A stretch of 64,000 nucleotides of DNA. Source: Terriglobus sp. TAA 43. GTDB lineage: Bacteria > Acidobacteriota > Terriglobia > Terriglobales > Acidobacteriaceae. How positions within the stretch are numbered: position 1 is the stretch's first letter; every line of letters begins with the position of its first letter. The stretch covers positions 992,001-1,056,000 of the forward strand of contig NZ_JUGR01000001.1 of the NCBI RefSeq assembly GCF_000800015.1, written 5' to 3'. This document shows positions 14,829-27,599 of the stretch, piece by piece. Under the pieces are notes generated by a model. The model did no database searches. It was not told the DNA's origin and worked only from the letters and a program-made list of their open reading frames with translations. A program made the position numbers and the translations under genes.

Positions 14829-16706
14829 GTGTCCGCATCTTCAAATCCGTGGTCGCCACTTCCCTCTGCGTGGCGCACCCGTGCGTTCGCAAATCCCGGA
14901 AGCATCCTGCTCGAATCCTCGTTGCCCTCCGCAACTGAGCACACATCCCTGCTCTTTGAAGACCCCTTCGAGATCCTCACGGCCAACGCGCCAAATGATC
15001 TCCCCGCACTCTTCGCAGCCATCGAAGACGCATCGCAAAACGGCTACTGGGTAGCCGGATGGATGGCCTACGAAGCAGGCGCACACTTCCTCCAACTCCC
15101 CGCGCGCGCAACATCAGGCCCCGTGGCCATCTTCGGCATCTATCGCCAGCCGCAAACCTTCGATCACACCGCACACCACGAACCTGAAACAACACCACAA
15201 ACACAGCCGCTACAACTCGCGCTGATGCCCACCATCACGCCAGCGCAATACACTCCCGCCATCGACCGCATCCAGCAATGGATCGCCGCCGGCGACACCT
15301 ACCAGGTCAACTTCACCACGCCGCTCACCACGCCCTGCCCCCACACACCGCAGCAGGTGTACGACGCCCTGCACGCGCAGCAGCCATGCAGCTTCGGCGC
15401 CATCCTCAACCTGCGCCCCAACAGCACCATCCTCTCCTTCTCACCCGAACTCTTCTTCAACGTCGACGCCGCAGGCAACATCGCCACCCGCCCCATGAAG
15501 GGCACATCACCGCGCAGCGCGAATCCAGCAGAAGATCACGCCCTCGCAGAAGCCCTGCAACACGACGAAAAGAACCGCGCAGAACACGTCATGATCGTCG
15601 ACCTCCTGCGCAACGACATGAACCGCATCTGTCGCATCGGCAGCGTCCACGCAGCCAGTCTCTTCGACGTCGAAAGCCTCTCCACGGTCCATCAGATGAC
15701 CTCCACCATCCGCGGCCAGTTATCCGCAGACACACCGTGGTACGAAGTCTTCCGCGCACTCTTCCCCGGAGGCTCCATCACCGGCGCCCCCAAGCGCCAC
15801 ACCGTCGAGCTCATTCAACAACTCGAAGCATACCCACGCGGCGTCTACACCGGAGCCATCGGCTATTTCGCGCCCGACCGCAGCGCCTGCTTCAACATCG
15901 CCATCCGCACCGCCGTTCTCGAAGACAACACACTCACACTCGGCGCAGGCGGAGGCATCGTCGCTGACTCCACAGCCACCTCCGAGTACCGCGAGATGCT
16001 GCTCAAGGCCTCCTTCGTGCAACGCGCCTCGCAGCCCATCCAACTCATCGAAACCATGCGCGCAGAGAACGGAAGCGTCCCGCTGTTGCAACATCATCTG
16101 CAACGCCTGCAATCCTCAGCAGAAGCGCTCGGCTTCACATGCGACACAAAGCAAATCGAAGCCTCCATCCACGCAGCAATCAATAAAGCAACACCGCAAC
16201 GCGTGCGTCTCCTACTGCACCGCAACGGCGAAGCAGAAATCACCATCGCCGAAGCACCATCATGGCCGCAGGAACTGCGCCTTCGCCTAAGCCACCAACA
16301 AACACGCGCAGACAGCCCACACCTGCGCCACAAGACCAACTTCCGCCCCGAGTACCAGCCGGAGCTCGAAGCCGCGCTCACCAACGGCTTCCACGACACA
16401 CTCTTCCTCAACACCGCAGGCGAAGTCACAGAAACCTGCATCGCGACGTTGCTCGCAAAGATTGACGACCGCTGGTTCACACCACCGCTCCGCAGCGGCG
16501 TACTCCCCGGCGTCTATCGCGAACAACTCATCGCCACCGGCCAGATCGCTGAACGCACACTCACCCTCAACGACCTGCGCAACGCCACATCCATCGCACT
16601 CTGCAACGCCCTGCGAGGCACCGCCCCCGTCACTTCCCTGCAACTTCCTGACGGCGAAATCATCCATTGGAAGTCCCCCTCGGACCTCCCATCCCTCCCT
16701 GCGTGA
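14829..16706 (+). CDS. pabB-pabC: Fused aminodeoxychorismate synthase component I / aminodeoxychorismate lyase
   Basis: Two consecutive steps of p-aminobenzoate synthesis for folate on one 625-aa chain. Residues 1-400 are the chorismate-binding PabB domain: GDTYQVNFT, TRPMKGTSPR, EHVMIVDLLRNDMNRI, GGSITGAPKRH, and GAGGGIVADSTATSEYREM. Residues 400-620 are a class IV PLP aminotransferase-fold PabC domain; HKTNFR carries the probable PLP Lys and GEVTETCIATLL the catalytic Glu region. GTG start at 14829, 24 bp after the XRE gene. The amidotransferase PabA is not in the window. Such PabB-PabC fusions are known in several phyla. Confidence 0.9.
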   Translation: MSASSNPWSPLPSAWRTRAFANPGSILLESSLPSATEHTSLLFEDPFEILTANAPNDLPALFAAIEDASQNGYWVAGWMAYEAGAHFLQLPARATSGPVAIFGIYRQPQTFDHTAHHEPETTPQTQPLQLALMPTITPAQYTPAIDRIQQWIAAGDTYQVNFTTPLTTPCPHTPQQVYDALHAQQPCSFGAILNLRPNSTILSFSPELFFNVDAAGNIATRPMKGTSPRSANPAEDHALAEALQHDEKNRAEHVMIVDLLRNDMNRICRIGSVHAASLFDVESLSTVHQMTSTIRGQLSADTPWYEVFRALFPGGSITGAPKRHTVELIQQLEAYPRGVYTGAIGYFAPDRSACFNIAIRTAVLEDNTLTLGAGGGIVADSTATSEYREMLLKASFVQRASQPIQLIETMRAENGSVPLLQHHLQRLQSSAEALGFTCDTKQIEASIHAAINKATPQRVRLLLHRNGEAEITIAEAPSWPQELRLRLSHQQTRADSPHLRHKTNFRPEYQPELEAALTNGFHDTLFLNTAGEVTETCIATLLAKIDDRWFTPPLRSGVLPGVYREQLIATGQIAERTLTLNDLRNATSIALCNALRGTAPVTSLQLPDGEIIHWKSPSDLPSLPA

Positions 16707-24319: not shown

Positions 24320-25252
24320 TTACCTGTCGACTCTGGCCTGCGCTGCGACGTCGGCCGTTAGTTCATTCAAGCGCGACAGGAACACTTTCAGAATGGGAGA
24401 CGGATTCGCTTTGCGATAACCGATCGAAAGATCGATTTTGGGGCCGCTTCCCTCCAGCGGGCGAGTCGTCACCGCATCAGGAAGAAAGGTCTTCGCATAC
24501 ACGGGCAGCAGAGCAATGCCACGGGTCGACGCAATCAGCGACACCACGCCACCCAGATTGTCGACCTCATGGCTGGGCCGTATCTCCATGTCATTCTCAT
24601 GCATGAATCGATCAATCGCGCGACGTAGAGCAGGCTGTTTGCCTGAGATGCTGAGAGCGGTCCCGGAAACACTGATAAATGTTTGATTCGCAATATCCGC
24701 GAGACTGACCGCGCTCTTGGCCGCAAGAGGATGATCTGCAGGTAGAAAAACTTCGAATGGCTCATCCACCAAAGTTCTGAAAGCCAGGTCATCGCTGCCG
24801 TCTTCTCTGCGTAGAAACGCCACGTCAATCCCGCCGTGTAAAAGAGCGGTGGCAAGCTGTGGAGAGTTCTGTGTCGAAATCACGATATGAATATTCGGCA
24901 GATCATCCCGAAGAAGCCTGAGCGCACCCGGTAACCACGTGGTGTCATGGCCAATCATGAATCCCAAAGCAAACGACGGCTTCGTCGGATAGGCAATTTG
25001 CCGCGCCGATTGCACCGCGACTTCAGCCTGCGAAAGCATTACGCGCGCATGGTCCAGAAACACTCGGCCCGCCGGAGTTAGCTCAACGCCCTTCGATCCT
25101 CTTACAAAAAGCGAAGCGCCGACCTCCTCTTCCAGGTCACGAATCTGGCGGCTAAGCGAAGGCTGTGTTGTGTTCAGCTTGTTTTCGGCTGCCAGCTTCA
25201 GACTTCGCGCTTCTGCCACCGCAACGAAGTATCGGAGATGTCTCAGTTCCAA
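24320..25252 (-). CDS. LysR-family transcriptional regulator
   Basis: 310-aa regulator: winged helix-turn-helix (about 3-62, LRHLRYFVAVAEARSLKLAA and LNTTQPSLSRQIRDLE), then a two-lobed effector-binding domain (about 90-300). A TTG at 25252 is proposed as start, because it gives the typical MELRHLRYF opening and has AGAGGTGG just upstream; an ATG 24 bp further up (25276) is the alternative. It is divergent from the first SDR gene, 181 bp apart, the usual layout for a LysR protein controlling a neighbour. It may also respond to a metabolite of the sulfatase or SDR reactions. Confidence 0.9.
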   Translation of the reverse strand: MELRHLRYFVAVAEARSLKLAAENKLNTTQPSLSRQIRDLEEEVGASLFVRGSKGVELTPAGRVFLDHARVMLSQAEVAVQSARQIAYPTKPSFALGFMIGHDTTWLPGALRLLRDDLPNIHIVISTQNSPQLATALLHGGIDVAFLRREDGSDDLAFRTLVDEPFEVFLPADHPLAAKSAVSLADIANQTFISVSGTALSISGKQPALRRAIDRFMHENDMEIRPSHEVDNLGGVVSLIASTRGIALLPVYAKTFLPDAVTTRPLEGSGPKIDLSIGYRKANPSPILKVFLSRLNELTADVAAQARVDR

Positions 25253-25433
25253 GTGCCACCTCTGCACAAAAAGCATAGCCCCTCAGCCTACAAAGCAATT
25301 CCTCTGGCGACGTTTCGGCGCTATTTTTGCAAAACAGGTCCTTGGATAATGGCGGTCTTGCCCCTGAAACTCAGGGTCTCTCGCTTTCTCCTGATCTTGA
25401 AGGACATCACGGGTTATCAGAAAGGTAAGGAAC

Positions 25434-26177
25434 ATGCCTCATTCTCTTGAAGGAAAGATCGCGCTGGTCACAGGCGGATCACGCGGCATCGGCGCTGCAA
25501 TTGCCAAACGTCTCGCTTCCGATGGAGCCAGCGTAGCCATCACCTACGCAAAGGACGCGAACGCGGCTGCTGTCGTGGTCAAAGCGATTCAGGACGCAGG
25601 CGGAAAGGCCATCGCAATTCAGGCAGACGCAGTCAATCCCGAAGCAAGCGTGGCAGCGGTTGAAAAAGCAGTAAGCGAACTCGGCAAGCTCGACATCCTC
25701 GTCAACAACGCCGGCACGGCAATCCCGAAGCCATTCGAAGAGACATCGCTGGAAGAGATGGAACATGTCATCAACCTCAATATCCGCGGCGTCTTCGTCA
25801 CCACCCAGGCAGCATTGAAACGCATGAATGACAACGGCCGCATCATCATGGTCGGCTCGTGTGTCGGAGAGCGAAACCTCACGCCTGGGCTGGCTGCGTA
25901 TGCAGCAACAAAGGGCGCCGTGAAAATGTTCGCGCAAAGCTTATCGCGAGAGGTTGGTACGCGCGGTATCACCGTCAACAACGTGCAGCCCGGCCCCATC
26001 GACACCGATCTCAATCCCGCAGATGGCGACTGGGCAACACCTCAGATCGCTGTCACAGGTCTCAAGCGCTACGGACATGTGGACGAGGTCGCAGCTCTCG
26101 TCGCATTTGTCGCCAGTTCGGAATCGTCCTACATCACCGGAGCGAATTTGACCGTAGATGGTGGTACCAACGCTTAG
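25434..26177 (+). CDS. SDR-family oxidoreductase (FabG-like)
   Basis: 247-aa NAD(P)-dependent classical short-chain dehydrogenase. Cofactor loop TGGSRGIGAAIAKRL at the N-terminus, NNAG at about residue 89, catalytic Ser in MVGSCVGE, YAATKGAVK (YxxxK) and PGPIDTDL near the C-terminal third. AAGGTAAGGA lies upstream of the ATG. Resemblance to 3-oxoacyl-ACP reductases is general and does not prove fatty-acid synthesis; the setting beside a LysR gene suggests a catabolic or detoxifying role. A second SDR follows after 63 bp. Confidence 0.9.
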   Translation: MPHSLEGKIALVTGGSRGIGAAIAKRLASDGASVAITYAKDANAAAVVVKAIQDAGGKAIAIQADAVNPEASVAAVEKAVSELGKLDILVNNAGTAIPKPFEETSLEEMEHVINLNIRGVFVTTQAALKRMNDNGRIIMVGSCVGERNLTPGLAAYAATKGAVKMFAQSLSREVGTRGITVNNVQPGPIDTDLNPADGDWATPQIAVTGLKRYGHVDEVAALVAFVASSESSYITGANLTVDGGTNA

Positions 26178-26240
26178 TAAACAGCGGCCTCATCAGGCAT
26201 CGAGTCTGGAGGCCGCTGAACTGTTTCAACGGAATCGCAA

Positions 26241-27005
26241 ATGATATTGAAGAACAAGGTTGCTCTCGTAACAGGCGCTTCAAGAGGAATCGGACGCGCC
26301 ACAGCCATTGCCCTCGCTGAGGCTGGCGCGCGCGTTCTCGTTCACTACGGTCGGTCCGCACAGGAAGCCGAATCGGTTGTCGCAGCCATCCGTTCCAAAG
26401 GCGGACAGGCGGAGGCCTTGGCATCGGACCTGGCTACGCCTAGCGGAGCAGCCCAGATTGCAACGCAGGTGGGTTCACTCACCGAAGGCCACCTCGACAT
26501 CGTGGTTTTGAACGCGGGTATCAGCAAGGCGGCACGCATCGCCGACTACAGCGCAGAGGATCTTGACGCTCTCTTTGCGACAAACGTTCGCGGACCATTT
26601 CTGCTCGTCCAGCAACTGCTCCCGTTCCTTCGCGAAGGTTCAAGTGTCATCGCCATCACTTCCGTCGTGGCTCGCGAGGTCGTCGGCAATCTCGCACCGG
26701 ACAAGCCTTCGATCCTCGCCTACGCCTCCACCAAGGGAGCACTCGAAACCCTGGTGAAGAATTGGGCTGCCATGCTGGGCCCACAGGGCATTCGCGTCAA
26801 TGCCGTAGCGCCGGGTGTGATCGACACGGATATGTCGAACTTTACAAAGACAGAAGCCGGAAGAGAGATCACCCTCCAAATGCAGGCGCTCAAACGCATC
26901 GGCAAACCGGAAGACGTAGCCGACGTAGTCGCCTTCCTGGCCTCTGACGCTGCTCGCTGGATCACTGGTGCCAGCATCCCCGTGGATGGCGGATCGAAGT
27001 TGTAG
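26241..27005 (+). CDS. SDR-family oxidoreductase (second of pair)
   Basis: 254-aa classical short-chain dehydrogenase: TGASRGIGRATAIAL for NAD(P), NAG at about residue 90, AITSVVAREV, YASTKGALE (YxxxK) and the C-terminal ITGASIPVDGGSKL. It is related to but clearly distinct from the upstream SDR, and is probably transcribed with it (63-bp gap). ATG 26241 is the first codon that includes the whole nucleotide-binding strand. Substrate unknown. Confidence 0.88.
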   Translation: MILKNKVALVTGASRGIGRATAIALAEAGARVLVHYGRSAQEAESVVAAIRSKGGQAEALASDLATPSGAAQIATQVGSLTEGHLDIVVLNAGISKAARIADYSAEDLDALFATNVRGPFLLVQQLLPFLREGSSVIAITSVVAREVVGNLAPDKPSILAYASTKGALETLVKNWAAMLGPQGIRVNAVAPGVIDTDMSNFTKTEAGREITLQMQALKRIGKPEDVADVVAFLASDAARWITGASIPVDGGSKL

Positions 27006-27021
27006 CGGTGCCGGAAATGGC

Positions 27022-27262
27022 TGTCAAGCCCCAAACCGACTCAACCCCAACAAACCAAAAGAAATACAGTTGGCATGGTATTTCCGCCGAACGACTAGAA
27101 TAGAAACAGAAGAGAAAGGGGCCGCGCCGAGCGCGGCCCTAACTCGTTTAGAAAGACGATTTTGCCTCTAAACCCAATGGGCAGACGATTTTACAGCCAC
27201 CCAATCCGTAACCCCAATAGAAAGACGATTTTAGAAAACAAGGGGGAGGGGGTGGGTATACC
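27022..27262. repeat. Composite intergenic element with AGACGATTTT repeats and GC hairpin
   Basis: Begins TGTCAAGCCCC and ends in a G-rich run before GGTATACC. Inside are a hairpin GGGCCGCG/CGCGGCCC (27119-27139, 5-nt loop) and three direct copies of AGACGATTTT (27154-27163, 27183-27192, 27223-27232), two within AGAAAGACGATTTT. The layout resembles dispersed intergenic elements I recall from Terriglobia genomes. Only one copy is in this window. Confidence 0.5.
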
Positions 27263-27377: not shown

Positions 27378-27599
27378 ATGGCAAAGGTATGCCCCATCAC
27401 CGGCAAGCGTCCGATGAGCGGAAACAAAGTGTCGCACGCGAATAACAAGACGCGTCGTCGCTGGGAGCCGAACCTGCAGTGGAAGCGCATTTGGGTTCCT
27501 TCAGAGAAGAAGTTTGTGCGTATGCGCGTGTCCGCGCGTGGTCTGCGCATCATTAACAAGATCGGCGCTGACGCCGCTCTGCTCCAGGCGAAGGGATAA
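27378..27599 (+). CDS. rpmB: 50S ribosomal protein L28
   Basis: 73-aa ribosomal protein with the family opening [19 protein letters not shown] and basic body [11 protein letters not shown]. It stabilises the large subunit near the exit-tunnel rim. AGGAG lies about 6 bp before ATG. rpmG follows 9 bp after the stop, the common rpmB-rpmG pairing. Only one Cys is present, so this is the non-zinc form. Confidence 0.97.

Follow-up and report, generated by a model that had tools for sequence, protein, structure and literature searches.

The block in the window

What is the intergenic block of about 235 bp that separates a group of regulatory and dehydrogenase-like genes from two ribosomal-protein-like genes in Terriglobus sp. 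TAA 43? Terriglobia are common soil bacteria whose RNA biology has been little studied. The block is apparently undescribed so far; we found no published description of it in the open-access literature. The window, meaning the whole stretch of 64,000 nucleotides that was analysed, is C1:992001-1056000 of a 4.95 Mb genome (G000). A preliminary description had listed a boundary word, a GC hairpin, three 10-mers at spacings of 29 and 40 and a G-rich run, and each of them lies where it was placed. The features are as follows.

24320..27005, left of the element: a LysR-type regulator and two short-chain dehydrogenase-like genes (named by eye)
27021..27255, plus strand: whole element, with limits set by a 43-copy profile and equal to L001:1516-1750; a copy in another genome of the genus (G003) is 92% identical and has the same right flank
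27022..27032, plus strand: left-end word TGTCAAGCCCC, the left homology limit in many pairs with a differing left neighbour
27049..27069, plus strand: A-rich, UP-element-like stretch 5′ of the -35-like hexamer
27070..27075, plus strand: -35-like hexamer TTGGCA
27096..27101, plus strand: -10-like hexamer TAGAAT
27119..27139, plus strand: leader hairpin with nine GC pairs
27140..27163, plus strand: unit 1, TAACTCGTTTAGAA followed by AGACGATTTT
27169..27192, plus strand: unit 2, TAAACCCAATGGGC followed by AGACGATTTT
27209..27232, plus strand: unit 3, TAACCCCAATAGAA followed by AGACGATTTT
27242..27256, plus strand: terminal G-run GGGGGAGGGGGTGGG
27378..27599, plus strand: right neighbour, a ribosomal protein L28-like gene (rpmB), in a right flank common to G003 and a third genome of the genus (G008)

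The AGACGATTTT words start at 27154, 27183 and 27223, and the window has no other perfect copy. Allowing one mismatch raises the number of matches to 8 (3.3 expected), which was reached in 1 of 100 shuffles; TGTCAAGCCCC with up to one mismatch is at chance level in the window (1 found, 1.06 expected). The hairpin at 27119..27139, read on the minus strand, resembles a terminator stem and is followed by CTTTCTCTTC. No plus-strand terminator was found at the window element, a generic promoter scan called no promoter there, and no Rfam covariance model matched the window at gathering score. In a search of 10 loci at E <= 5, the sole match on an element was a weak minus-strand RefA5 match in L001 (25 bits, against a gathering score of 91).

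Copies in the genome

G000 holds at least 47 copies of the element, all recognised by the profile; the set combines 30 BLAST loci with 13 and then 4 further stretches and is a lower bound. BLAST of the block against G000 gave 40 strong matches (E <= 2.6e-33) among the 40 of 55 candidates that were scored. The paired 10-mer pattern occurs 63 times and its reversed control 0 times; genome-wide counts are 124 against 1 for AGACGATTTT and 42 against 3 for TGTCAAGCCC. Only four of the 101 listed AGACGATTTT places fall outside the compiled elements, and there is no element at those four. The AGACGATTTT word is tied to the element, and the suspicion that the block is dispersed is borne out. We also considered a DNA uptake sequence and rejected it, since AGACGATTTT is almost confined to elements and the four isolated motifs look like chance.

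Promoter-like region and leader

The order of parts was read from 102 copies in G000, G003 and G008, with 30 copies from G003 (perhaps a partial set) and 25 from G008 (part of its copies). It begins with CTGTCAAGCCCC, a poorly conserved and then A-rich stretch, and TTGGCA, followed by 20 bp, TAnnnT, a leader of about 40 nt, the three units and the G-run. A TTGGCA-like hexamer with TAnnnT 19-21 bp downstream is present in 100 of the 102 copies (the search required T, A and a closing T in the second hexamer). TTGGCA is exact in 90, and the gap is 20 bp in 96 of the 100. A -35/-10 spacing of 20, as in these Terriglobus copies, is not the standard sigma-70 spacing. A sigma-54 reading of TTGGCATGGTATTTCC was rejected because its -12 part misfits the consensus and the TAnnnT block follows at a fixed distance.

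Promoter-like sequences differ in more distant relatives. All 11 fetched copies of G059 (of at least 23 matched) have TTGACA followed after 15-18 nt by a -10-like hexamer under a loose definition, and seven of the 11 have a strict consensus promoter. Outside Terriglobus the strict promoter was found at 9 of 86 loci (seven from G059 and two single loci), compared with 3 of 427 control windows on the same strand and 2 of 427 on the opposite strand. It was found in 0 of 48 tested copies from G065, G067 and G073 and is absent from most single loci. The TAnnnT..GAAnTAG block was seen at 35 of 98 other loci and in none of 389 control windows; upstream TGTCAAG was seen at 32 of the 98 loci and in 1 of the 389 windows. 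This contrast is partly circular, since the pattern, BLAST query or model that retrieved the loci already covered the 5′ module. Both are absent from all 19 G065 and 11 G059 copies.

The leader folds with z < -2 in 66 of 100 copies and does not reach this value in the other 34. Its stems vary in sequence among copies, with an entirely different stem in L023, and matching changes on both arms were seen by eye in L007, L008, L012 and L063. One locus in G018 (L077) carries the 5′ module and a hairpin immediately before an ORF but no units or G-run that could be recognised, and one of its genes is related to the right-hand gene of L021.

Three units and a species-specific word

Among copies with three perfect GACGATTTT words, the unit spacing is 29 in 58 of 60 and 40-42 in all 60, and the spacing is kept across genera. 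Each unit joins a half that is common to genera (TAAsYCCwwT, with exceptions) to a lineage-specific half. The word varies roughly by species: AGACGATTTT in G000, G003 and G008, TCTAATTTTT in G012 and G005, ACAGGATTTT in G006, and GAAGAACTTAC in G001. Most copies have little predicted RNA structure in the region of the units (median z -0.56, with z < -2 in 14 of 100 copies), and folding gives no support to reading the three units as structured RNA.

Some lineages depart from the pattern of three like units. In G065 (L252-L270) the third unit is mostly GAAGATTTTGC or GAAGAATTTGC and the first two mostly GAATATTTTGC, and the three positions may not be equivalent in this genome. The G073 copies (L291-L310) have other sequence in place of the third unit, and many of them carry a GGTAACGTTACC-like palindrome after the G-run. 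Two G001 copies (L104 and L107) lie less than 1 kb apart in opposite orientation, both with a 20-base insertion just after TGTCAAGCC.

Conserved parts and a possible function

Flanking sequence pairs 28 of the 47 G000 copies with a G003 copy: 17 by both flanks, 11 by the right flank only and none by the left only. A further G003 copy (L167) has the right flank of an already paired G000 copy, and one G000/G008 hit (L197/L178) that joins a right to a left flank was left out. Over the 28 ortholog pairs, identity is 0.982 for the -35 hexamer, 0.968 for TGTCAAGCCC (the first ten bases), 0.957 for the motifs, 0.946 for the -10 hexamer and 0.939 for TATTTCC. It is 0.914 for the shared halves, 0.886 for the G-run, 0.802 for the unassigned remainder and 0.746 for the hairpin columns. 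The whole element, at 0.873, shows no extra conservation over 15 neighbouring spacers (0.870). Constraint therefore acts on parts and not on the whole: the promoter-like hexamers, the left-end word and the three motifs are conserved above the rest.

Our tentative preference, held at a little under an even chance, is that the block belongs to a multicopy set of small-RNA-like transcription units, in which the triple motif would bind a co-evolving partner. RNA polymerase would start just downstream of TAGAAT (27096-27101) and read rightwards. The predicted transcript would contain the leader hairpin and then a largely unstructured stretch with three motif copies at even spacing, ending near the G-run. 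A partner, most likely an RNA-binding protein, would recognise the shared and lineage-specific halves of the motif three times, and the transcripts could act as a scaffold or titrating decoy in the manner of CsrB-type RNAs. Copies would have spread within each genus, become fixed beside many core genes and been kept by selection on promoter and motifs. A non-coding RNA had been proposed for this block; the conserved promoter-like region and leader hairpins appear to agree with that proposal, and the triple-motif region, predicted to be unstructured as RNA, does not.

CsrB/RsmY-type RNAs act as sponges, and LhrC is a multicopy sRNA family. The element resembles these in its repeated linear motif, its own (here putative) promoter and its several copies. 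It differs in having dozens of copies per genome, no GGA in the G000 motif and no plus-strand terminator that we could see.

It is rather unlikely, in our estimate, that the units instead work as DNA, as operator-like or recombinase-arm-like sites for a lineage-specific DNA-binding protein, with the transcript an incidental or regulated product. Such sites would fit the perfect or near-perfect dyads of some G001 units (TAAGTTCC..GGAACTTA in L100) and of the L231 units in G103 (TAAATTC..GAATTTA), but no dyads were seen by eye in the G000 and T. roseus units. They would also fit the spacings of 29 and 40, whose difference of 11 is close to one helical turn; the mostly unstructured three-unit region; and a word that varies by species as operators do. 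DNA sites alone, however, need no conserved -35 and -10 hexamers or leader hairpins. We prefer a transcribed element because these two hexamers are among the most conserved bases; the lack of RNA structure in the units and of a plus-strand terminator keeps the preference tentative. No partner gene for the motif was found.

On either account, a multicopy, promoter-bearing element with a species-specific triple motif points to an RNA- or DNA-binding partner. Since the word changes from species to species, the partner is expected to change with it, and this offers a ready assay for it.

Distribution among relatives and the question of mobility

In the genus, BLAST matched 7 of 18 other genomes, strongly only in G003 and G008, and several complete genomes gave no match; the element is thus not indispensable. 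G012, G001, G005 and G006 have homologous elements with another repeated word. A sequence-only model (cut-off E <= 0.001) found relatives in 39 of 80 sampled family genomes, the window's own included, or 38 of 79 genera; eight of the 39 have one weak match each (E 5.8e-5 to 9.0e-4). A model of the three units and G-run (cut-off E <= 1e-4) was positive in 17 of 101 genomes and 8 of 57 genera of the class. Six of the 17 belong to a second family, where two genomes have at least 30 and at least 9 matches and four have 1 or 2. The same model was positive in 7 of 119 genomes of a phylum sample, all 7 in the window's own family. Match counts from both models are minima, and the strict filters lose weak matches. 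The element is patchy, occurring in many but not all related genera. The similar blocks that had been mentioned for Terriglobia are real: many of the family's genera have relatives of the element, as do some in the wider class. The BLAST comparison proposed in the preliminary description returned neither a single copy nor a lack of relatives.

Plasmids and phages gave no match. An exact search of GTDB contigs with the 5′ module returned 8 stretches, five from T. roseus and three from Bacteroidota; by eye, the latter contain nothing else of the element. A strict pattern from 5′ module to G-run matched only 2 of 29 relatives. Conservation of sites across genera was considered and rejected: two right-hand matches passed the filter (identity >= 38%, E <= 1e-10), about chance level by a rough estimate. 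They join L264 (G065) with L028/L189 (Terriglobus) at 55% and L268 (G065) with L292 (G073) at 39%.

Could the block be a selfish miniature mobile element, a promoter and three sites for a transposase encoded elsewhere, without host function? The high copy number and the patchiness in genus and family are in keeping with this. Sites are hardly common between genera, and each genus was probably populated separately; the words differ by lineage, as separate master copies predict. Of the 47 G000 copies, 19 are unpartnered among the 30 G003 copies compared, and 11 of those 19 are also unpartnered among the 25 G008 copies compared, both being partial sets. Against it stand functional parts that are 95-98% identical between orthologs, and a right flank that, for 29 of 30 G003 copies, matches that of a G000 copy. 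The ends also argue against it. We found no terminal inverted repeats in the 47 copies (left end compared with the reversed right end, local score 10.5 on average and 10.1 after shuffling) and no target duplication (mean longest shared word 3.72, null 3.83, sd 0.11, with an uncertain right boundary). We judge a selfish element unlikely, and the label of miniature element (MITE) that the block had been given is unearned. No autonomous partner with the same ends was noticed among the fetched loci.

Inverted repeats and TA duplications mark the ends of the Correia repeat enclosed elements of Neisseria. Like those elements, the present one is a short dispersed intergenic repeat with a promoter and protein-binding sites, both putative here, that may influence neighbours; unlike them, it has no inverted repeats or TA duplications and has three fixed-spacing, lineage-specific motifs and a G-run. 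REPs are 20-40 bp palindromes with GTAG or CGTC tags (PMC3733652). With REP/BIME sequences, whose transposases are of the RAYT (TnpA-REP) type, the element shares a dispersed extragenic position, often near gene 3′ ends, but it is about 235 bp long and not palindromic, although G000 has two Y1_Tnp matches over the cut-off; these do not imply a tie to the element. We found no REP/BIME palindrome with a GTAG or CGTC foot in it: the only hairpin is in the variable leader, and that hairpin is absent or weak in a third of copies.

Right-hand genes

Of the 47 right-hand genes in G000, as called by our own codon-based method, 28 face the element and 19 face away from it. Among the 28 convergent genes, 16 have their stop codon within 20 bp of the element. 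The right-hand proteins of the 47 copies are varied, many of them core or housekeeping by eye. In the window the L28-like gene is followed by an L33-like short ORF (by eye). The nearness to ribosomal genes that had been pointed out is real as a position, and it looks incidental in meaning, given the mixed right neighbours.

The convergent genes would suit an element that serves, on its minus strand, to terminate or insulate the right-hand gene. In that direction the stop codon is closely followed by a C-rich tract (presumably Rho-site-like), then by a T-run, the GC stem and T-rich sequence (CTTTCTCTTC in the window). The right flank shared in 28 of 28 G000/G003 pairs, themselves matched by flank, would suit it too. 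This role is quite improbable, as 19 of 47 right genes, that of the window included, face away, predicted terminator matches show no excess (1 against 0.8 in shuffles), and the conservation of the -35, -10 and triple motif is left unexplained.

The left end as a junction

Right-only comparisons among the three genomes number 31 and are not independent. In 19 of them homology ends no more than 8 bp from the element's first base. Among the other 12, it extends a further 16-186 bp to the left in nine, mostly running into a second repeat, and begins within the element in three. The 11 right-only pairs supplied ten pairs of 18-kb windows, and in these the homology picks up again farther to the left. 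The DNA in between contains ordinary accessory genes with no obvious recombinase (by eye, first 60 residues), and no shared motif was noticed at its left borders (by eye, five pairs). The LysR-like and two dehydrogenase-like genes at 24320-27005 have no match in the corresponding 18-kb G003 window and are a left-hand cargo of this kind.

We compared these breaks with a baseline of 19 interruptions in about 114 kb, which is rough, having been counted by eye in windows chosen for a differing left flank. Against it the excess of left-end breaks (11 of 28) is modest, and the absence of right breaks (0 of 28) is the clearer signal; that absence may come partly from the small space between G-run and gene and from the matching of pairs by flank.

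Ectopic recombination between copies, as a cause of the changed left flanks, was mostly rejected because bases 40-75 of the 11 right-only pairs are at ortholog level (0.886; paralogs 0.752). Against this rejection, the first 40 bases are at 0.793 in right-only pairs, compared with 0.841 in the 17 both-flank pairs and 0.71 in paralogs. In L014, L015, L021 and L063 they are near or below the paralog mean.

Integron attI and attC sites have core and accessory repeats, and the site stays while neighbours on one side change. The element resembles them in both respects. It differs in that copies are single and dispersed, no shared left-border motif was noticed and no integrase exceeds the cut-off: G000 has 11 matches to TIGR02249, the best at 62.6 bits and none over the 265-bit cut-off. 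Twenty 18-kb windows contained no cassette array, with one element per window (counting two adjoining pieces at L211 as one).

A more speculative scheme, and in our view an improbable one, is that one system spans the class: a dedicated trans-acting protein would co-evolve with the genome-specific word, present three times in each of dozens of RNA-gene-like elements. The left ends would then be precise entry points for new genes and the second repeat, making the elements landing platforms beside core genes. The repeated loss of left homology at CTGTCAAG offers a route to study how accessory genes enter these genomes.

The second dispersed repeat (..ACGCCGAAGGCGTCGAGAACGGCACGAAGTGC) abuts the left end of the element at L002, L004, L013, L153, L172, L173, L189, L198 and others. 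Its core lies within 45 bp left of the element in 19 of 102 copies, against 0.3 expected, and on the right side in 5 of 102. A Y1_Tnp (RAYT-like) gene at G000:C3:226007-226324 is 1.8 kb from element L027, and it may belong with the second repeat and not with the element. Another dispersed-looking sequence, CCGTCATCCTGAACGAAGCGAAGCGGAGCTGAAGGA, is present in the left flanks of two copies, at L206:15889-15929 and in L205 (oriented, ~15722-15761). The G057 locus L234 has two matches to Acido-Lenti-1 RNA (760-807 and 2335-2382), about 0.7 kb to each side of the element, one over and one below the gathering score.
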